From Pseudomonadota bacterium (GTDB taxonomy: Bacteria > Pseudomonadota > Gammaproteobacteria > Burkholderiales > Usitatibacteraceae), in assembly GCA_029781595.1 (NCBI GenBank), contig JAKOWJ010000271.1, forward strand, positions 1 through 52,424: DNA of 52,424 bases, in the 5' to 3' direction. The notes beneath the pieces were generated by a model. That model ran no database searches. It saw only the letters and a list, made by a program, of their open reading frames with translations, and was not told where the DNA came from. Shown here piece after piece: positions 5,344 through 15,584 of the stretch. Position 1 is the first letter of the stretch. Every line of letters starts with the position of its first letter. The position numbers and the translations under genes are program-made.

Positions 5344-5885
5344 CTTCGCGGCGCGGGCCGCACCATGAACTCGTAGATCCCGCGCATCTCGCGTGCCGCG
5401 AACCCGGCGCGCAGGTACATCCGCCGGGCCGGGTTGAAGGGCTCGACGTGCAGCGAGGCCTCGATCCCCAGCGCATCGGCGTAATCGAGCAGCGCCTCCA
5501 GCAGGCGCGTGCCCAGGCCCTGGTTGCGGTGCGCGGGCAGCAGCGTCACCTCCATGAGCCGCACCTCCGCGCCGGTCGTGTCCACGTACATGCGCCCGAT
5601 GTCGTCGCCCGCGTGCGAGACGACGAGGCGCTCGGCCGCGGGATAGTGCAGCCCGTAGTGGCGCTCCTGCTGGGCGGACTGCCAGTCGGTGAAGGCCTTC
5701 TTCTCGGCCTCGCTCCACGGCACGGGCCGCAGCTCCTCCTCGCGCGTGGTGGCGTAGACGGCCGCGATGAACGCGGTGTCCTGCGCGCCGGCCGGGCGCA
5801 GCGCGAGGCCGTGCGCGGCGAGGCGCTCGCGCGAGAAGGCGAGGAATCCCGGCCCGGCGGGGACGTCGGTCGACAGGGGGCTCAG
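5340..5885 (-). CDS. GNAT N-acetyltransferase beside the tail-collar cluster
   Basis: The C-terminal 160 residues form a clear GNAT domain: MEVTLLPAHRNQGLGTRLLE carries the Q/RxxGxG/A acetyl-CoA loop and PARRMYLRAGF the C-terminal helix. No ATG, GTG or TTG lies in frame before the domain. The best candidate start is a CTG at 5885 that overlaps the TGA of the upstream Tat-exported protein (CTGA), so coupled initiation at a rare codon, or a start I cannot see, is implied. Its position between the Tat gene and the DUF6916-like gene suggests membership of that cluster. Confidence 0.75.
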   Translation of the reverse strand: MSPLSTDVPAGPGFLAFSRERLAAHGLALRPAGAQDTAFIAAVYATTREEELRPVPWSEAEKKAFTDWQSAQQERHYGLHYPAAERLVVSHAGDDIGRMYVDTTGAEVRLMEVTLLPAHRNQGLGTRLLEALLDYADALGIEASLHVEPFNPARRMYLRAGFAAREMRGIYEFMVRPAPRS

Positions 5886-6631
5886 GCCGCCGCGGGTCGC
5901 AGCGTCACGGCGACGTAGTCGAAGTCCACCGGCGCGCCGTCCAGGCGCCGCACAGGCGCATGCACGTCGCCGCTGAACGCGTGCCGCGAGAAATCGGGGA
6001 CGTTCCCCGATTTCCGCGACGGGCCCGCGAGGAGGTAGAGGCCCTCGCCCGCTCCCTCCCGGCCGCCCAGGGGCAGCAGGAGGCGACCGGCGCGCGCGAG
6101 GCCGGCGCGATCGGCGTGGGCCGCGTCGATCTCGTAGTCGACCTGCAGCACCACGCGCTGGGGCGCGCAGGCGTCGAAGGAGATGGGCGGCGAGGCGCGG
6201 CCGGCCTCGTGTCGCCACGCGGGAAAGGCTGCGACCTCGTCCGAGCCCTCGACCGCGAAGTGGGCGACGACCTCCAGGCGGGAAAGGAGCGGCGCACGCC
6301 CTTCCGGCGCGCGCAGCAGCCCCAGCGAGACGGCCAGGCGGTCGGCGGGGAAGGCGGTGCAGGCTTGCCCGGATCGCCACGCGCGCCACGGCAGCGCGCC
6401 GGCGAGCGCCTTCGCGTCACCGCCTCCGCCGGCGCGTGCGAGCAGGCCCGCGCCGCCCTCCAGGAAGGCGAGCGCGATGCCGGCCGGGCGCGGGTCGGGC
6501 GTCGTGCCGGCACCGGCGGCACGCGAGAGGCGTTCGCCCCGCGCCTGCGCGGCGCTCGATTCCAGAGGAGCCAGCGTGCCGGCGGCGGCGCCCAGCGAGC
6601 CTGCGGCGGCGAGGAAGTTTCGGCGGTCCAT
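5882..6631 (-). CDS. Tat-exported protein of unknown function
   Basis: The 249-residue product begins MDRRNFLAAAGSLG, a twin-arginine motif (RRNFL) followed by a weakly hydrophobic stretch and an alanine-rich cleavage region, so Tat export of a folded protein is likely. The mature part has no family I recognise; it is rich in beta-like segments (VVLQVDYEIDAAHAD, FDYVAVTLRPAAA). It lies directly downstream of the three collar genes. A perfect 25-bp palindrome at 5990-6014 is translated as part of it (KSGNVPDF), which may be an inserted repeat. Confidence 0.7.
   Translation of the reverse strand: MDRRNFLAAAGSLGAAAGTLAPLESSAAQARGERLSRAAGAGTTPDPRPAGIALAFLEGGAGLLARAGGGGDAKALAGALPWRAWRSGQACTAFPADRLAVSLGLLRAPEGRAPLLSRLEVVAHFAVEGSDEVAAFPAWRHEAGRASPPISFDACAPQRVVLQVDYEIDAAHADRAGLARAGRLLLPLGGREGAGEGLYLLAGPSRKSGNVPDFSRHAFSGDVHAPVRRLDGAPVDFDYVAVTLRPAAA
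5990..6014. repeat. Perfect 25-bp inverted repeat (REP-like) inside a coding sequence
   Basis: GAAATCGGGGA and TCCCCGATTTC form exact 11-base arms around CGT. Allowing one bulged base, the pairing extends outward by four more bases on each side (CGCG). The AAATCGGGGAC core resembles widespread REP-type palindromes often associated with RAYT transposases. It falls in frame within the Tat-exported protein gene. Confidence 0.85.
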
Positions 6632-6644
6632 GGCGGGCCCGTGG

Positions 6645-7166
6645 TCAGGTGCGCGGCGGGAAGACGCCCTGCAGCGCGATGTTGAAGTAGAAGGTGAGGT
6701 AGGGCTGCATGTTGTTGTGCGGCTGGTCGCCGCCGGCGGGCGCCAGGGCGTTGCCACTCAGCATCGTGCCGCCCGCCCCTTGGTAGAGGGTGCCTCCCGA
6801 GGAGATGGCCAGGGAGGCGAATCCGCTGGGCACGTTCGTGTCGGCCAGGTCGATGACGTCCGCCGCAAAGGTGTGCCCGTGGGAGGGCATTTCCGACTCG
6901 AGCAGGGAAACCGTCTCCGAGCCGCCCATTTCGCCCAGGTCGTGCAGCGACAGCCCCGGACCCTGACCGGGATGCATGGGCGCGCGTCCCTGCAGGTCAG
7001 GCAGGGCGAAGTTCGACTTGCCGTTGCCCCCGTAGGTGGTGCCCAGTAGCGAGAAGAGCGCGGTGTTCTGGGAGAGCGGCAGGAGCTGCCCGTCGCACCA
7101 CGCCCAGCCCTTCGGGGCGAAATTGAAGGGGAAGATGCGGATCTCGGCGACGAAGGGATCTGCCAT
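6645..7166 (-). CDS. Phage-tail-collar / MdpB-type protein, copy 1
   Basis: The 173-residue protein has the family pattern EIRIFPFNFAPKGWAWCDGQ, then LLGTTYGGNG and FALPDLQGR (residues 8-61), followed by a variable middle and a closing QPHNNMQPYLTFYFNIALQG. These are hallmarks of the tail-collar/microcystin-dependent-protein B family, related to the receptor-tip domains of phage tail fibres. No other phage gene is nearby, so this is a cellular copy. It is the third of three tandem paralogues; no signal peptide is evident. Confidence 0.9.
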   Translation of the reverse strand: MADPFVAEIRIFPFNFAPKGWAWCDGQLLPLSQNTALFSLLGTTYGGNGKSNFALPDLQGRAPMHPGQGPGLSLHDLGEMGGSETVSLLESEMPSHGHTFAADVIDLADTNVPSGFASLAISSGGTLYQGAGGTMLSGNALAPAGGDQPHNNMQPYLTFYFNIALQGVFPPRT

Positions 7167-7173
7167 GGAAGCC

Positions 7174-7677
7174 TCAGGTCGGCGAAGGATAGATGCCGAA
7201 GAGCGAGATGATGAAATCCACGCACAGGTAGGGCTGCAGGTTGGCGTGGGGCTGGCTGCCGCCCGTGGCGCCGATGGCGCCGCCGACCAGGGCCCCCGTG
7301 GGCACGTCGTTGATGTAGGGCGTCACGTTGTACGAGGCGGCCAGCACGTTGCCCGTCGGCAGGATCCGGTTGCCCGCGAGGTTCGACGCAAGCATCGGAT
7401 GGGAATGCGACGGGACCTGGTTCATCGTGAGCGTGACCTCTTCCGCACCCCCGGTCTCGGCCAGCACGAAGCCGCTGCCCATGTGCACGGGGATCCGCCC
7501 GCGCAGGTCGGGCAGGCCGAAGGTGCTCTGCCCGTCGCCGCCGTAGGTGGTGCCGATGAGGTTGAACAGCGTCTCGTTCTCCGAGATCGGCAGCAGCTGC
7601 CCCTCGCAGAACATCCATCCGGCGGGCGCGAAGTTGCCCGCGAACAGGCGGATTTCGCCGACGTAGGGTTGGGCCAT
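7174..7677 (-). CDS. Phage-tail-collar / MdpB-type protein, copy 2
   Basis: The 167-residue protein repeats the collar layout (EIRLFAGNFAPAGWMFCEGQ, LIGTTYGGDG, FGLPDLRGR, closing QPHANLQPYLCVDFIISLFG). The N-terminal 60 residues and the closing 20 are well conserved among the three copies, while the centre (about residues 75-140) is different in each. That is what one expects if the middle forms the ligand-facing tip. It is separated from copy 1 by seven bases and from copy 3 by eleven. Confidence 0.9.
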   Translation of the reverse strand: MAQPYVGEIRLFAGNFAPAGWMFCEGQLLPISENETLFNLIGTTYGGDGQSTFGLPDLRGRIPVHMGSGFVLAETGGAEEVTLTMNQVPSHSHPMLASNLAGNRILPTGNVLAASYNVTPYINDVPTGALVGGAIGATGGSQPHANLQPYLCVDFIISLFGIYPSPT

Positions 7678-7688
7678 GGCAAGGGATC

Positions 7689-8189
7689 CTAGGTAGGCGA
7701 GGGGAAGATGCCCTGCAGCGCGATGCTGAAATTGAGCGCGAGGAAGGGCTGCATGTTCAGGTGCGCCTGGCTGCCGCCCGCGGTGCCCACGGTCGCCGGG
7801 TGCATCGCCACGAGGCCGTCGGGCGCGCGGTAGGCGTTGTTGGCGCCGCCGAGGTACCGGCCGTTGGGACTGGCGTTGCCGCCTGAGGCCGCCGGGGAGG
7901 CGTTCACGACGTGCGCGTGAGTGGGAATCTCCGTGATGGACAGCGTGTGCGCCTGCTCCCCGCCGCGCTCGCCCAGCGTGTGGCCGCTGCCCACGTGGAT
8001 GGGCGTGCGCCCGCGCAGGTCCGGCAGGCCGAAGTTCACGCGGCCGTCGCCGCCGAAGGTCGTGCCCAGCAGCGAGAAAAGGCCCTGGTTCTGGTTGATG
8101 GGCAGCAGCTGCCCGTCGCACAGCGCCCAGCCCTTCGGCGCGAAGCCGAAGCTCATGAGGCGGATCTCGGAAAGGAACGGCTCTGCCAT
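7689..8189 (-). CDS. Phage-tail-collar / MdpB-type protein, copy 3
   Basis: The 166-residue protein has EIRLMSFGFAPKGWALCDGQ, LLGTTFGGDG and FGLPDLRGR and the closing QAHLNMQPFLALNFSIALQG. It lies 16 bases downstream of the giant Ig-like/beta-helix gene, in the same direction, and heads the collar triplet. The shared direction and short gaps argue for one transcript from the giant gene to the Tat gene. Confidence 0.9.
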   Translation of the reverse strand: MAEPFLSEIRLMSFGFAPKGWALCDGQLLPINQNQGLFSLLGTTFGGDGRVNFGLPDLRGRTPIHVGSGHTLGERGGEQAHTLSITEIPTHAHVVNASPAASGGNASPNGRYLGGANNAYRAPDGLVAMHPATVGTAGGSQAHLNMQPFLALNFSIALQGIFPSPT

Positions 8190-8205
8190 GGTCGACTCTC
8201 CGTGC

Positions 8206-11200
8206 TCAGGGACAGGTGGCGCCACCGCCGGTGAAACCGATGCCGGTATTGCTCGCGATAGCCGTGGGCACGCCGCCGGAAAGGTTGTTGCCCACCACGA
8301 AGGCGGCGACCGCCGCGTTGTCGGTGGTCGCGCCGGCGTAGCCCGGCAGGCGGATCGTCGTGGACTGGCGCTGGCGCAGGCGCACGTCGAAGTCCGACCC
8401 CACGGGCGGCGAGGCATCCGCCCCGCTCGCGAAGAGCGTGTTGCCGGTGATCACCGAGCAGGCCGTGAACGTGTCGCCAGGCACCGTGCCGATGTTCAGG
8501 TGCACGCCGTTCTTCGGAGTGCCCAGCGAGCCTGCGGTGGTGCCCGGCTGCTCGATCGTGTTGCCCGTGATCGTCGTGTTGAACGCACCGGGCTGTGCCG
8601 TGGCGCCGCCACCGGCGAGCAGCTCGATGCCGTAGTTGTTGTACTGGCGGATCTGGTTGTTGGTGATGGCCATGGTCACCGTGCCCTGGCCGACCGTCTG
8701 CAGCTTGAGCCCCGAACCCTCGGCCGAGCCCGAGTTGGCCACGCCCGAGGCGCCGATCACGTTGTTGGCGAACGTGCCCGAGAGCGTGCCGAAGCCCGTC
8801 GTCTTCACGATGAGCACGGCGTGGCCCACCGCGCCCCGGAAGGTGTTGCCGCTGATCGTGAGCGGCAGGTCGTTGTTGAAGCCGCTCGAGATCGTCACGC
8901 CGCCGCCGCCGGTGGCGATCGCCGGGTGGCCGTTGATGAACGAGTTGCCCGTGAGCACCAGGTCCTGGTTCGATGCCGAGCCGTTGTCCACGTACTGCAG
9001 CATGTCGCCGCGCGCCGAGGTGAAGGAGGAGGCGTTCACCGTCATCCGGATCGTCGCCGTGCCCTGCGGCTCCACCAGCACCCCGTCATTGCCGTCCGTG
9101 GTGCTGTTGGCGCCGATCGTCACGCCGTCCAGCACCAGGCGGTCCAGCGCCCCGCTCTGGTTCACCACGCGCAGGTTGTTCTCGAAAGCGCCGCTGATCG
9201 CGGTGTTGGTGATGGCCGCCGCCCCCGTGAGGCCGTTTGCCGGGCCGCCGAATTCGCCGGAGCCCGCGCCGAAGGCGACGCTGCCCTCCGCGTTGGGCTG
9301 GGTGAAAGCGACGTGGGAGTTGCCGTTCGTGCCGTTGATCACGCTGTTGGCCAGCGTGAACCCGTTCACGACGAACCCCCGGATGGCGAAGTTCGCGAAG
9401 TCGTTGAGCTGCATCCACTGGAACGACGGGCTCGCCGTGCTGCGCAGGAAGATGCCGTTGCCGGTGAGCGCGTCGCCGTCGGTGCCGCCCTTGTTGGCGA
9501 TCGTGCCGCCGCTGGCCGGCGCGCCGTTGCCGACCACCGCCAGCGCCCCGGCGCCGCCCGTGTTGTCGAGCACGATGCCCGTGGGATTGCCGCCCTGCGA
9601 GCTGATGCTGCGGAAGGTGAGCCCGGCCGCGCCGATGGTGGTGTTGGTCACGCTGAGCGCCGTGTCGGAGGTCGCCGAGAGCGCGTTCACGATGGTCGTG
9701 TTGTTCTGCGTGGCGGTCACCGTGCCGCCGCCTTGCGCGACGAACGCGGGGTTGCCGTTGGTGGTGATGCCCATCCCGCCCGAGAAGTTCACCGCCGACC
9801 CGGCGTTGTTGGACAGGAAGATGCGCGCGCCCGTGCCGGTGACGGCCCCCGAGAGGTTCACGGTGCCGCCGGTCTTGTTCTGGACGCTCACCACCTGCGC
9901 GCCGGCCACCGCGTTGGCGATGGTGCCCGCGTAGCTCACGTTGGCCGTGCCGCCGTTCACCACGAAGGAGTTGCCGGTCGCGCCGTTGAGCGCGCCCGAG
10001 CCCAGGTCCGCGGTGCCGGCCGGGCCCACGAGGTTCACGCTGAGCGGGCCGCCGTTGGCGCTGAGCGAGGACAGCACCACGTTGACGCTCGGCAGGCCCG
10101 CGCCCGTGAGGCTCACGCCCGCGCCGGCGGTGTTGACCGAGGTGCTGGTGATCGAGAGGGTGCCGACCGACCCGCCCGTGATGGCGATGCCCGGGGCCGT
10201 GCCGGTGATCGCCAGGCCCGCGACGGTGTTGTCCGTCGCCAGGGTCACCGAGTCGCCGCCCAGCACGTTGCCGACGGTCGGCGTGGCTCCGGCCGCCTTC
10301 AGCACAGGGCTGGCCACTCCGTTGAACGTGCCCGGCACCGTGAGCGCGACGCCCTCGCCGATGAAGCGCTGGGAATTCTTGAGGACCGAATTGCCGTCGT
10401 GGTTGGTGCCCGTGCCGTTGCCCGCGGCCACGTAGACCGTGTCGCCGACCCCCGAGGCGGAGATGGCCGACGCGAGCGTGTTGTACGGCGTGGCCGAGCG
10501 GCCGTCGCCGCCCGCCGGCGCGTCGTTCTTCACGTACCACACCTTCTGGGCCACGTTGATCGTGACCGTGCCCGTGGCGGTGCCGATGCCGTCGCTCACG
10601 GTGTAGGTGAAGGAATCCGCCCCGGTGAAGCTCACCGGCGGCTCGTAGGTGAACTCGCCGTTGGCCGCCAGCGTCACCGAGCCGCCGGAGACGGTCGCGA
10701 ACGTGCCGGCCGTGGCGGTGACGCCCGTGCCGTTGGCGCCGCCATTGCCGTCGTTGTCGTTGCTGAGGAGGTTGGAGGTCGTGACGAGCAGCCGCGGGCC
10801 GGTGACCGCGCCCGCCGCCTTCACCTCGAGCGTGGTGTTGCCCACCGCGTCGAAGGTGTCCGCGCCCGCCACCGGCGGCTCGTTCACCGTGCCCGAGTAG
10901 GCGGTCGTGCCGGTGCAGCCGTTGGCCGTGTCCGTCACCGTCACCGTGAAGGAATACGCGCCTGCGCCCGTGACCGTGCCGCTGAGGAGGCCGCCCGGGG
11001 CGAGCGTGAGGCCGCCCGGCGGCGCGCCGCCCGTGACGGCGAAGGTATACGGACCCGTCCCGCCGCTGCCGGCGAGCGTGGTGGAGTACGCGTTGGTGCG
11101 CGTGGGCTGCGGGATCGACGCAGGCGTCGACGAGATCACCGGGCACACGTTCAGCGTGAAGTTCTGCGTGGCCGAGCCGGCGAGGTTGGTCGCCGTCATC

Positions 11201-14200
11201 ACCTGCGCGTAGGGGCTCGCGGCGTCGGTGCCGCCGGCCGGCGTGCCCGAGAGCGTGGCCGTGCCGTCCCCGTTGTCGAGGAAGTTCAGCCCCGAGGGCA
11301 ACGTGCCGGTGCGCGTGAGGCCCGGCGTGGGGTTGCCCGTCGCCGTCACCGTGAAGGTGCCGGCCGAGCCCACCGTGAAGTTGGCCGAGGCCGCGCTCGT
11401 GATGGCCGGGGGCGTCGCCGTCGTGAAGCCGAAGACGTAGTTGGCCACCATCGGCTGGCTCGCGTCCACGTCCGTCACGCCCGCCGCGACCACCGTCACC
11501 GTGCAGGCCGTGGAGACCGGCAGCGGCGCCGAGGGCGTGAGCACGAACGTGTTCGAGGGCGAGGCCGAGAGCGTGAAGGCCACCGGCGTGGCCACCGGGC
11601 ACTGCAGCGTGAAGGAGGCCCCGGTCGCGTTGACCGGCTCGCTGAAGTTCACCGTGACGGTCGTCGAGGGCGCCACCGCCGTCGCGCCGTTGGCGGGCAC
11701 CGTCGTGGTGACCGTCGGCAGCGTGTTGGTGGAGAAGGTCGCCGTGAAGTCGCCCGTCATCGGCTGGCCGCCGCTGTCGGTGACCTGGCTCGCCACCACC
11801 GTGAGCGTGCAGGTGACGCCCGCCGGCAGCGTCGCACCCGGCGTGAGCGTGAAGCTCGCCGCGGGCGAGGCCGGCGCGACGGTGAAGGCGACGGGCGAGC
11901 CCGTCGGGCAGGCGAGCGTGAAGGCGCTGCCCGTGACCGTGACCGGCTCGCTGAAGTTCACGGTGACCGTGGCGTTCGTGCCCACGGACGTCGCGCCGTT
12001 GGCGGGCAGCGTGCTCGTGACCGCCGGCGGGTTGTCCACCGTGATGGCGACCGTGCCGGTGGCGGTGAGCGGCCCGCCCGTGCCGGTGTTGCCCTGGTCG
12101 TCGATGTCCACCTTGAGGGTGGCCGGGCCCGCGTACGCCGCCGTGGGGGTGTAGACGAGGCCCGTGAGCGCGGCGTTCTGCGCCGCGAGCGGGCCGGTGG
12201 AGACGACCGAGCCCGTGCCGTTGCCCGTGACGACGAGGCCGGCGGTGCCCGAGAGCATCGCGGTGCCGTTGGTGGTGGTGATCGTGACCTTGACGGGGGA
12301 GGTGCCCGCGTCGGGATCGCCCACGCTCACCGTCGCCGCGAAGTTGAACGCCGCGTTGACGGGCGTGGTGGCCGTGGCCGGCACCGTCACCGTCGGCGCG
12401 TTGTTCACGGCGCCGATCGTCACCGTCGCGTGCGCGAGCGGCGAATTGTCCGTGATGGCGTCGTTCACGGTGACGGTGATGTCGCGCGTGGTCGTCGTCG
12501 GCGCGGCCGAGGCGTTGGCGTAGGCGAGCGTGCGCAGCAGCGCCTGGTAGTCCGCGAGAGGCGCCGCACGCGTGATCGTGAGCGTGCCCGTGCCGGGGGT
12601 GTACACGACGTCGGCCGCGAGGATCGCGCCGCTGCAACCCGGCGCCACCGCCGGGCAGGTGACGGCGAGGGACTCCGAGGCGCCGTCGAGCAGGTTGGTG
12701 ATGGCCACCGTCGCGCTCGCCAGGTTGGCGCTGTCGGCATCCGTCACCGTGAGCTGCGCGCCGTCCACGATCGCCACCGCGCCCCCGCCCTCGGTGAAGG
12801 CCACCGGGCCGAAGTCGATGCCCGCGGCCGGTCCGTTGAGGTCCACCACCGGCGGCGCGCTCGTCACCGTGATCGTCACCGCCGCGCCGCTGCTGCCGCC
12901 GGCGTTGGTAGCCACGTAGGAGAAGCCATCCGCGCCCGCGAAGAGCGCGTTGGGCGTGTAGCTGAAGCTGCCGTCGGCCGCCACCGTGGCGTTTCCGTTG
13001 GTCGTGGCGATCGCGCACGGGAACACCGTGCAGGCCGGCCCGCTGCCGGTGACGCTGCTCACCGCGGGCGCCGGCGTACCCGAGTCGTTGGCGAGCAGGC
13101 CCGTGCCGGCGGGCACGTTCAGCACCGTGTCGTGCGCGACGGAGTAGGCGTCGGCGACCGCGACCGGACCTTCGTTCACCGTGAGCGTGAAGGCCTGGGG
13201 CGGGGCGCTGCCCGCGCTGTTGGTCGCGTTGACCGTGCAGGCGTAGGCGCCGGCCGAGCCCGAGGGCGGGTTGCCCGCCAGCGTGCCGGTGCCGTTGGCG
13301 TTGTCGATGAAGGTCACGCCCGCGGGCAGCGCGGGCGCGCAGGCGCCGAAGGTGATCGCCGGCGCCGGGAAGCCCGTGGCCGTCACCGTGAAGGTGTTGG
13401 CCGCGCCCACGGTGAAGGTGGCCGCGTTGGCGCTGGTGATGGCCGGCACCTGCGAGACGGTGAAGGTCACCGTGCCGTCCGAGGTGCCGTTGACGTTCGA
13501 GAGCCGGTACTGGACGGTGTAGGACCCCGCCACGGCCGGCGAGAAGCTCACCGAGCCGTCCGCGTTCACCGTGACCGTGCCGCCGGCCAGGGCCACCGTG
13601 GCGCCCGCGGCGTTGTCCGTGACGGCGCCGCCGAGCGAGCCGCCGCCGAAGCTCGTGAGCGTGGCGAGCGGCACGCCCAGCGAATCGTTCGCCAGCACGC
13701 CGGGCGCGGCGACCACGAGCGGCACGCCGGTGGCCGTGGCGTACGCGTCGGCCGTGGCGGCCGGGCCGGAGGCGGTGCGCACGTCGGCGCGGATGTACAG
13801 GCGCCCGTCGCCCTGCTCGAACTTCACGAAGGCCGCGCGGATGTCGCTGCCGGGGTTGGCGTCGCCCAGCGGGTCGTTGGCGATGGGCGAGATGCCGGCC
13901 CAGTCGGTGATCTGCCCGTCCAGCGTCACGGCCGCGAGCGTCGCGCCCGCCATGACCACCACGAAGAGGGCCGAGACGAGCGCCGTGGGAAGCTGCCGGC
14001 GCTTGAGCGCGCGCGCGGCGGCCAGCCACACCAGGAACGCGAGCAGGAAGATCGCCGCGTCGGTGAGCGTCGGGATGGCCGTGGCCGCCCCGAAGGCGAA
14101 GACGATGGGACCGCCGCCGGGCGCGCCCGTCACCGTGAACAGCGCGTCGGGGCCCGTCACCGGGTCCACGTACGCGAAGCCGAAGCGATAGGTGCCCGCC

Positions 14201-14565
14201 GGCGCGGCGGCCGGGAAGAAGGTCTCGATGACGTCGGTGCCGCCGACGCCCACGCCCAGGCCCACGTTCCAGCCGCCGGGGGAGACGGCCACCGGCGCGC
14301 CCAGCCCCGCGGGCGGGGCGACGCAGGCCTGCTGGACGATGGCGCCCACCGCGGGCGGGCTCACCGTCGTGTCGATGTTGGTGGTGAGGACTTCCTCGGC
14401 GCCGACGAAGTTGCCGGCGGGCGTGACGATCGTGCAGCCCGTGGCCGTGTTGTTGTCGGTGTCGATGAAGACCTGGAGCTGGGCGGCCTGCGCCTCCAGG
14501 CCCAGCACCGCGAACGCGAGGAAAAGGACCGACCGGGCCCACCGGGCCGCCGCGTTGCGTTTCAT
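8206..14565 (-). CDS. Giant exported protein: Ig-like modules plus beta-helix, internal IPTL-CTERM-like segment
   Basis: The 2,119-residue product has a signal peptide (residues 1-28). Residues 29-163 form a small beta-rich module. Residues 164-190 are IPTL, a hydrophobic helix and a basic ALKRR end, the form of an IPTL-CTERM sorting signal, which is normally C-terminal. A second hydrophobic segment (about 193-213) leads into a DOMON-like stretch. Then come putative-Ig, cadherin-like and two SbsA-type Ig modules (about 265-1340; the SbsA pair, with repeated NFSEPV, starts near 845). From about 1340 the sequence has the Gly/Asn-rich repeats of a right-handed beta-helix. There is no autotransporter barrel. 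The 160-bp upstream gap is AT-richer than its surroundings and may hold the promoter; AGGACAAG precedes the ATG. Probably a cell-surface or secreted adhesin-like protein. Confidence 0.85.
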   Translation of the reverse strand: MKRNAAARWARSVLFLAFAVLGLEAQAAQLQVFIDTDNNTATGCTIVTPAGNFVGAEEVLTTNIDTTVSPPAVGAIVQQACVAPPAGLGAPVAVSPGGWNVGLGVGVGGTDVIETFFPAAAPAGTYRFGFAYVDPVTGPDALFTVTGAPGGGPIVFAFGAATAIPTLTDAAIFLLAFLVWLAAARALKRRQLPTALVSALFVVVMAGATLAAVTLDGQITDWAGISPIANDPLGDANPGSDIRAAFVKFEQGDGRLYIRADVRTASGPAATADAYATATGVPLVVAAPGVLANDSLGVPLATLTSFGGGSLGGAVTDNAAGATVALAGGTVTVNADGSVSFSPAVAGSYTVQYRLSNVNGTSDGTVTFTVSQVPAITSANAATFTVGAANTFTVTATGFPAPAITFGACAPALPAGVTFIDNANGTGTLAGNPPSGSAGAYACTVNATNSAGSAPPQAFTLTVNEGPVAVADAYSVAHDTVLNVPAGTGLLANDSGTPAPAVSSVTGSGPACTVFPCAIATTNGNATVAADGSFSYTPNALFAGADGFSYVATNAGGSSGAAVTITVTSAPPVVDLNGPAAGIDFGPVAFTEGGGAVAIVDGAQLTVTDADSANLASATVAITNLLDGASESLAVTCPAVAPGCSGAILAADVVYTPGTGTLTITRAAPLADYQALLRTLAYANASAAPTTTTRDITVTVNDAITDNSPLAHATVTIGAVNNAPTVTVPATATTPVNAAFNFAATVSVGDPDAGTSPVKVTITTTNGTAMLSGTAGLVVTGNGTGSVVSTGPLAAQNAALTGLVYTPTAAYAGPATLKVDIDDQGNTGTGGPLTATGTVAITVDNPPAVTSTLPANGATSVGTNATVTVNFSEPVTVTGSAFTLACPTGSPVAFTVAPASPAASFTLTPGATLPAGVTCTLTVVASQVTDSGGQPMTGDFTATFSTNTLPTVTTTVPANGATAVAPSTTVTVNFSEPVNATGASFTLQCPVATPVAFTLSASPSNTFVLTPSAPLPVSTACTVTVVAAGVTDVDASQPMVANYVFGFTTATPPAITSAASANFTVGSAGTFTVTATGNPTPGLTRTGTLPSGLNFLDNGDGTATLSGTPAGGTDAASPYAQVMTATNLAGSATQNFTLNVCPVISSTPASIPQPTRTNAYSTTLAGSGGTGPYTFAVTGGAPPGGLTLAPGGLLSGTVTGAGAYSFTVTVTDTANGCTGTTAYSGTVNEPPVAGADTFDAVGNTTLEVKAAGAVTGPRLLVTTSNLLSNDNDGNGGANGTGVTATAGTFATVSGGSVTLAANGEFTYEPPVSFTGADSFTYTVSDGIGTATGTVTINVAQKVWYVKNDAPAGGDGRSATPYNTLASAISASGVGDTVYVAAGNGTGTNHDGNSVLKNSQRFIGEGVALTVPGTFNGVASPVLKAAGATPTVGNVLGGDSVTLATDNTVAGLAITGTAPGIAITGGSVGTLSITSTSVNTAGAGVSLTGAGLPSVNVVLSSLSANGGPLSVNLVGPAGTADLGSGALNGATGNSFVVNGGTANVSYAGTIANAVAGAQVVSVQNKTGGTVNLSGAVTGTGARIFLSNNAGSAVNFSGGMGITTNGNPAFVAQGGGTVTATQNNTTIVNALSATSDTALSVTNTTIGAAGLTFRSISSQGGNPTGIVLDNTGGAGALAVVGNGAPASGGTIANKGGTDGDALTGNGIFLRSTASPSFQWMQLNDFANFAIRGFVVNGFTLANSVINGTNGNSHVAFTQPNAEGSVAFGAGSGEFGGPANGLTGAAAITNTAISGAFENNLRVVNQSGALDRLVLDGVTIGANSTTDGNDGVLVEPQGTATIRMTVNASSFTSARGDMLQYVDNGSASNQDLVLTGNSFINGHPAIATGGGGVTISSGFNNDLPLTISGNTFRGAVGHAVLIVKTTGFGTLSGTFANNVIGASGVANSGSAEGSGLKLQTVGQGTVTMAITNNQIRQYNNYGIELLAGGGATAQPGAFNTTITGNTIEQPGTTAGSLGTPKNGVHLNIGTVPGDTFTACSVITGNTLFASGADASPPVGSDFDVRLRQRQSTTIRLPGYAGATTDNAAVAAFVVGNNLSGGVPTAIASNTGIGFTGGGATCP

Positions 14566-14727
14566 TCTTGTCCTGCCCCTTGTCGTGATGCGCGGAGTCG
14601 CACGGGTGCGCGCCGTGCGGGAGCCTGCGTGTGGTTTTCGGTTACTTTACACCTTCCGCATTTCACGCAATCGTTTCACCCGTCATCCGCGGGCCTTCGT
14701 GGGACCGAGGTCCAATGCGCTCGGCGC

Positions 14728-15129
14728 TCAGTAGGTGACGCAGGCCACCGATTTCACGCGCAGCACCGATTCCTGCCGGAATCGCGCCTTGTACGCGGCG
14801 ATCACCTCGCGCACCCGCGACTCGGTCCGCTCGTCGTCGCGGTGCACCAGGCTCAGCACGAAGGAGTCCTCGCGCACCAGCCGCCCGTCGCCCGCCTTCC
14901 ACTGCCCGGCCGCCGGCCACGCGGTGAGCCCCTCGGAAAAGCGCGGCGTCACCGTGTCCGCGAGAAACGCCGCCCAGTCCGCGGCGCCCACGCGCCCCTC
15001 GGCCATCTGCGTGCCGAAGTAGAGGAAGTCGCTGACGGCCGGCGTCTCGCCCCGCTCGCACTGCACCGTGCCCGTGGCGGCGCAGCCGGCGAGCGCCGCG
15101 GCGGCGAGGATCGCGGGCAGGACCCTCAT
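14728..15129 (-). CDS. DUF3574-like lipoprotein
   Basis: The 133-residue protein starts with a lipoprotein signal peptide whose lipobox is LAGC (cysteine 16). The mature part matches the DUF3574 pattern as I recall it: FLYFGTQM, then VTPRFSEGLTAW, GQWKAGDGRLVREDSF and a C-terminal ESRVREVIAAYKARF helix. Function is unknown; it should be anchored in the periplasm. Its start overlaps the stop of the GNAT gene upstream by four bases. Confidence 0.8.
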   Translation of the reverse strand: MRVLPAILAAAALAGCAATGTVQCERGETPAVSDFLYFGTQMAEGRVGAADWAAFLADTVTPRFSEGLTAWPAAGQWKAGDGRLVREDSFVLSLVHRDDERTESRVREVIAAYKARFRQESVLRVKSVACVTY

Positions 15130-15584
15130 CGCGGCGGCTCGCCCATCGGCAGGTCGTAGCGGATGAAGCCGTCGTGCCGCGCCACGCGGTCGTAGAGCGC
15201 TCGCGCGACCGCGTTGTCCGCCTTCGTCTGCCAGTAGCAGCGCGCGCAGCCCGCCTCCCGCGCCCGCTCGCCCACGGCCGCGATGAGCGCGCGCGCCACG
15301 CCCTGGCCGCGCGCGTCCGGCACGGTGAAGAGGTCCTGCAGGTAGCACACCCGTTCGGACCAGGCGCTCGCGTGCAGGAGGTAGTGGGCGATGCCGACGA
15401 CGCGCCCGTCCACGCGCGCGGCCAGGCCGTGCACCACGTGGCCCTGCATCAGGCGCCGCCACGCCGCGTCGTACTCCGCGTCCGTCACGGTCGTGCCGTA
15501 GAAGGCCTTGTAGCCGCGCGCGAGCGGCTCCCACCCCTCGCGGTCCTCCGCGCGCAGGGCGTCCACCACGATCGCGGGGCTCAC
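15126..15584 (-). CDS. GNAT N-acetyltransferase
   Basis: The 152-residue protein is a single GNAT domain: CYLQDLFTVPDARGQGVARA contains the ARGQGVA acetyl-CoA loop, and YWQTKADNAVARALYDRV the C-terminal helix. The start is a GTG at 15584 overlapping the TGA of the upstream GNAT gene (GTGA). The pair may have arisen as a functional unit, but the two proteins belong to different GNAT subgroups. Substrate unknown. Confidence 0.88.
   Translation of the reverse strand: MSPAIVVDALRAEDREGWEPLARGYKAFYGTTVTDAEYDAAWRRLMQGHVVHGLAARVDGRVVGIAHYLLHASAWSERVCYLQDLFTVPDARGQGVARALIAAVGERAREAGCARCYWQTKADNAVARALYDRVARHDGFIRYDLPMGEPPR

Follow-up and report, generated by a model that had tools for sequence, protein, structure and literature searches.

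We propose, with a probability of about 0.6, that a giant protein encoded in the window (the whole 52,424-nucleotide stretch of DNA analysed here) carries a genuine sorting signal of the IPTL-CTERM type in the interior of its precursor, where it forms part of a membrane hairpin that is probably cut; the topology, the cleavage and the anchoring are what we infer. The mid-protein tag most probably reflects a cutting point built into the protein rather than an error of sequencing, because it stands at the same place in all relatives checked and because XrtH, the exosortase presumed to act on IPTL-CTERM, is encoded in every genome with the full layout. Exosortase signals have been described as C-terminal tags, whereas here an internal one is conserved and tracks XrtH. 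An internal signal placed before interchangeable giant passengers offers a clear test of exosortase cutting within precursors, and it also bears on the way in which the envelope retains or releases such passengers.

Architecture of the precursor

The protein and its parts are as follows (window coordinates).

8206–14565, minus strand: whole precursor of 2,119 amino acids, an open reading frame that is unbroken in relatives
14485–14565, minus strand: N-terminal signal peptide, residues 1–27, with an AQA|A site (by eye from the sequence; helix at residues 4–20 in the model)
14086–14484, minus strand: N-terminal all-beta domain, residues 28–160, from LDTDxNxxTGC to GVExVL (sequence and model)
13996–14076, minus strand: IPTL-CTERM-like segment, residues 164–190, comprising IPTL, helix 1 and KRR (profiles, relatives and model)
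13930–13995, minus strand: second, signal-peptide-like helix, residues 191–212, ending in TLA|AV, a candidate signal peptidase I site
13774–13929, minus strand: DG..DW..DPxGDA..LYxRxD segment, residues 213–264, which may complete the N-terminal beta domain as its other half
8209–13773, minus strand: passenger, residues 265–2119, with Ig-like, cadherin-like and CopC-like repeats followed by a glycine/asparagine-rich C-terminal part, which is probably a beta-helix as judged by eye

The IPTL motif occupies residues 164–167 (window 14065–14076) and KRRQ residues 188–191 (window 13993–14004). Two separate hydrophobic stretches were observed, at residues ~163–188 and 191–215, and the AlphaFold model of residues 1–272 shows helices at 169–188 and 192–215 with a short basic turn between them. 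The initial annotation had reported that the segment is followed by another signal-like helix and then by some 1,900 further residues; the helix is seen in the sequence and the model, and the further residues in the sequence. The order that characterizes IPTL-CTERM, in which a motif is followed by a transmembrane helix and a basic cluster, is present in the window protein, but about 1,930 residues lie C-terminal to the segment, which is therefore not in the C-terminal location of IPTL-CTERM. Among the genomes searched, the N-terminal LDTD domain was found only in this protein family.

Likeness of the internal segment to IPTL-CTERM

When the whole protein was compared with PF18203, the Pfam IPTL-CTERM family, residues 162–187 gave 13.6 bits (E 0.06) against a cut-off of 20.8. 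In the genome scan, the window segment gave 20.2 bits, or 20.9 when its frame neighbours were included, and its score taken alone is borderline. The aligned segment in three relatives exceeded the same cut-off (G083, 32.1 bits; G665, 26.1; G670, 26.4). We also built a tail HMM from 34 true IPTL tails of the window genome and the carrier genomes. The window segment scored 17.6 bits with this model and none of 3,600 shuffled segments exceeded 11.9; 9 of 18 segments scored above 12 bits, and those of the VPLSP subgroup were mostly no better than shuffles. Because three relatives pass the Pfam cut-off and all shuffles score lower, the likeness to IPTL-CTERM goes beyond chance, and the IPTL identity read from residues 164–190 in the initial annotation is upheld. 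An ordinary hydrophobic segment that resembles IPTL-CTERM by accident would agree with the window's own borderline Pfam score, but the scores of the aligned relatives, the shuffles and the co-occurrence of XrtH make such an accident very unlikely.

The motif normally ends its protein, as had been assumed from the start: in 34 of the 36 IPTL-CTERM matches in the window genome and the carrier genomes, the protein stops 1–16 residues past the motif, and the two non-terminal matches are the window protein and a relative (L073/L031). The window reads IPTLTDAA and has no W at position 7 of IPTLxxWG, a position that is also variable among the true tails of the carrier genomes. In the aligned relatives, P165, L167, D216, G217, D221 and W222 are invariant, and R188 is nearly so.

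Relatives share the unbroken layout and encode XrtH

At least 18 relatives with the same uninterrupted layout were found in beta- and some gammaproteobacteria. The layout runs from a signal peptide through the LDTDxNxxTGC beta domain, a P-x-L (IPTL-like) helix, arginines, a second helix, an Ala and the DG..DW segment to a variable passenger. The frame is open through the region in genomes G083 (two proteins), G038, G228, G497, G663 and G652 and in loci L024, L026–L028, L030, L031 and L033–L038 (L025 and L032 are further names for G083, and L029 for G228); two of the unbroken assemblies are single-contig or few-contig genomes. By record title, the relatives are mostly Betaproteobacteria, the exceptions being Pseudomarimonas arenosa CAU 1598 (L038) and one labelled Pseudomonadales. 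The L026 record, titled Bordetella parapertussis, is the metagenome bin HRSG-H13-bin-83, and its species label looks doubtful. A first contig search with the window sequence alone as the query returned no relatives, and none were found in viral contigs and plasmids or in phages, the last searched with the L041 domain only.

The XrtH of the window genome scores 188 bits with TIGR04177 (cut-off 86). XrtH above this cut-off is encoded in each of the 17 full-layout genomes (the window genome, G083, G038, G228, G497, G663, G652 and G665–G674). In the background, XrtH was detected in 16 of 300 genomes of the order and 14 of 369 of the class (approximately 4–5 percent), with four carriers in each sample. 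One-sided Fisher tests within these samples gave 5.5e-6 for the order and 1.3e-6 for the class, values that ignore kinship and hence overstate independence. XrtH also occurs in genomes of the same family without a window-type protein (e.g., G022, G152 and G250). In G366, G530 and G675, which have no XrtH, the DG part alone was seen, and the contigs of G675 start inside the protein.

Each of the 16 aligned rows has an Ala ahead of the DG segment. A site that obeys the -3/-1 rule lies 3–6 residues before DG in the same 16 of 16 rows, a rule that is lax in Ala-rich helices; the helix 2 end sites include VFA|A in G663, GLA|G in G497 and IQA|E in G652. The end of helix 2 is therefore compatible with cutting by signal peptidase I, and we regard it as a candidate site.

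Proposed course of maturation

We suggest a putative course for the maturation of the precursor. The N-terminal signal peptide would take the chain through Sec and then be removed, and the LDTD domain would fold in the periplasm. The IPTL-like helix would insert into the inner membrane, its arginines facing the inside, and helix 2 would take the chain back out, leaving the DG..DW segment and the passenger outside. XrtH would cut at the IPTL motif and transfer the N-terminal domain onto its anchor. A further cut, past the conserved Ala that ends helix 2, may be made by signal peptidase I. Each precursor would thus yield two outside products, with the hairpin excised. The anatomy, the conservation and the co-occurrence with XrtH are read from sequence, and the topology, the two cuts and their order are our interpretation of them.

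Alternatively, the helices may form an uncut membrane hairpin that merely keeps the two outside parts attached to the inner membrane, the likeness to IPTL being inherited and unused. The membrane anchor offered as an alternative in the initial annotation, with both flanks outside, is of this kind. The two predicted helices with their basic turn fit such a hairpin, the window lacks the canonical W, and the segments of the VPLSP subgroup have diverged from the consensus of true tails. However, a mere anchor leaves unexplained why XrtH is kept in 17 of 17 full-layout genomes against the low background, and why P-x-L and the Ala ahead of DG are conserved while the remaining helix positions vary. 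We consider an uncut hairpin the less likely reading.

Origin of the mid-protein signal

It had been suggested that an IPTL-CTERM protein of about 190 residues became fused to a downstream secreted protein by loss of the stop. The window genome is a draft of 374 contigs and 88 percent completeness, in which one could imagine the recent loss of a stop codon, or a mistake in sequencing or assembly. Nevertheless, many independent assemblies read the same frame unbroken. Since they pass through the same place without a stop, we reject this explanation as extremely improbable. The search for a split version, proposed earlier as a check, found none among the relatives examined. The long protein is thus shared by the relatives, and a separate short gene was not seen in them, a finding named beforehand as one that would count against the fusion if the helix were also not a sorting signal; the helix does resemble one.

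An ancient fusion, in which a short IPTL-CTERM gene was joined to a downstream gene encoding a secreted protein, the signal peptide of which turned into helix 2, is a different matter. Helix 2 resembles a signal peptide, and in the DG-type proteins L042 and L051 a plain signal peptide stands immediately ahead of the DG segment. Against this, a search of 300 genomes of the order turned up no separate short gene for the N-terminal domain with an IPTL end (one match with E 0.005 contains a stop), and none of 38 chosen genomes, 22 of which have XrtH but no window-type protein, yielded the domain on its own. Moreover, the short DG segment ends at the point where a stand-alone protein of Gemmatimonadota (L041) continues into an LDxDxNxxTG half that resembles the N-terminal domain. 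We therefore regard an ancient fusion as doubtful.

The L041 protein also raises the possibility, which we consider rather improbable, that the flanks of the hairpin make up one beta domain whose two halves have changed places and would be held together non-covalently after both cuts. If so, a giant passenger would be held by its N-terminus, with the C-terminus free, through an enzyme that can anchor only C-termini. In L041, the DG segment is followed directly by LDVDGNARTG..GVEG, like the start of the N-terminal domain. A permuted profile matched L041 in one continuous stretch (56.2 bits), compared with 42.8 plus 4.2 bits in the native order, and when the second half of L041 was shuffled 2,000 times, the permuted score was never reached. 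When the N-domain profile alone was run on this second half, 5 of 1,928 shuffles beat it. The pattern was not seen in L042, and a search for native-order relatives found only L041. Foldseek of the model against the PDB gave nothing usable (best E 0.2), and VIA-align gave no match at Z 5 or more. Several galectins, with Z of 3.2–3.7, cover model residues 24–253, too weakly to name the fold; since these matches span that range, the model appears to pack the DG strand onto the N-terminal domain. Folded alone, the DG segment reached a pLDDT of 82–87, compared with 83–91 in context, which is non-discriminating, and the permuted sequence had no convincing match in Pfam and the PDB. These hints are weak evidence that would favour an insertion or permutation origin over fusion.

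Comparison with known systems

The idea of a mid-protein cut is already known, as the name of NF033207 (NCBIfam 'midcut-by-XrtH protein') shows. Compared by name and profile, that family and the window protein share a mid-protein IPTL-like signal, a second helix and an XrtH genome. The window protein scored 26.5 bits (E 5.6e-6), below the curated cut-off of 45. The profile matches 10 of 16 module rows (best E 6.8e-9), none of which reaches 45 bits; the best relative is L031 with 35.5 bits, matches were also found in G497, G652, G663 and G038, and L055, L053, L054 and L008 gave 18–22 bits. Within the family, the match begins ahead of the IPTL segment, covers both helices and, in some relatives, reaches into the DG segment. 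The window protein is therefore a divergent relative of an already named kind and, like its relatives below the cut-off, not a member of NF033207 by the curated rule. Our literature search found no paper with the term 'midcut-by-XrtH'. The present analysis adds the co-occurrence with XrtH, the Ala site, the exchange of passengers (Ig/beta-helix or RHS) and a weak indication of swapped halves.

With IPTL-CTERM (TIGR04174, PF18203) and XrtH, the window has in common the motif, the helix, the basic cluster and the presence of the cognate enzyme. It differs in the position of the segment (residue 164 of 2,119), the second helix and passenger that follow it, and the missing W. The three-part signal and the kind of enzyme are also those of PEP-CTERM and the EpsH exosortase. 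However, PEP-CTERM is found near the C-terminus 'virtually without exception', and the rare signals distant from the end are suspected to be non-functional (Haft 2006, PMC1569441). The window family is thus a conserved exception in a system that is sister to PEP-CTERM. A single precursor with an internal, signal-peptide-like helix has a parallel of another kind. The cytochrome b/c1 proteins of Bradyrhizobium are made as one precursor, FbcH, which is cut by signal peptidase at such a helix; these proteins are unrelated to the window family, and no exosortase is known to be involved.

Passengers and neighbouring genes

Past residue 264, the relatives split into two groups. In the first (the window, L024–L028 and L038), the passenger consists of Ig/cadherin-like repeats and a long C-terminal part, and in the second (L029, L030, L035, L036 and L037), it contains PKD, FG-GAP and PASTA domains, followed in L030 and L035 by RHS repeats. 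Because the passengers differ by group past this point, the N-terminal 264 residues represent a module that precedes interchangeable passengers.

Three tandem genes lie directly downstream of the large protein.

6645–7166, 7174–7677 and 7689–8189, minus strand: phage tail collar-like genes (PF07484 match in the frame at 7174–8121)

The large protein and the collar triplet form a conserved gene group. The triplet also follows the large protein in L024, L025, L026, L027, L028 and L008. Beyond it, the gene at window 5882–6757 on the minus strand has similarly placed relatives in L024 and L026. An antisense open frame of 2,412 amino acids spans window 7921–15159 on the plus strand, and it is probably a by-product of high GC content and codon bias.
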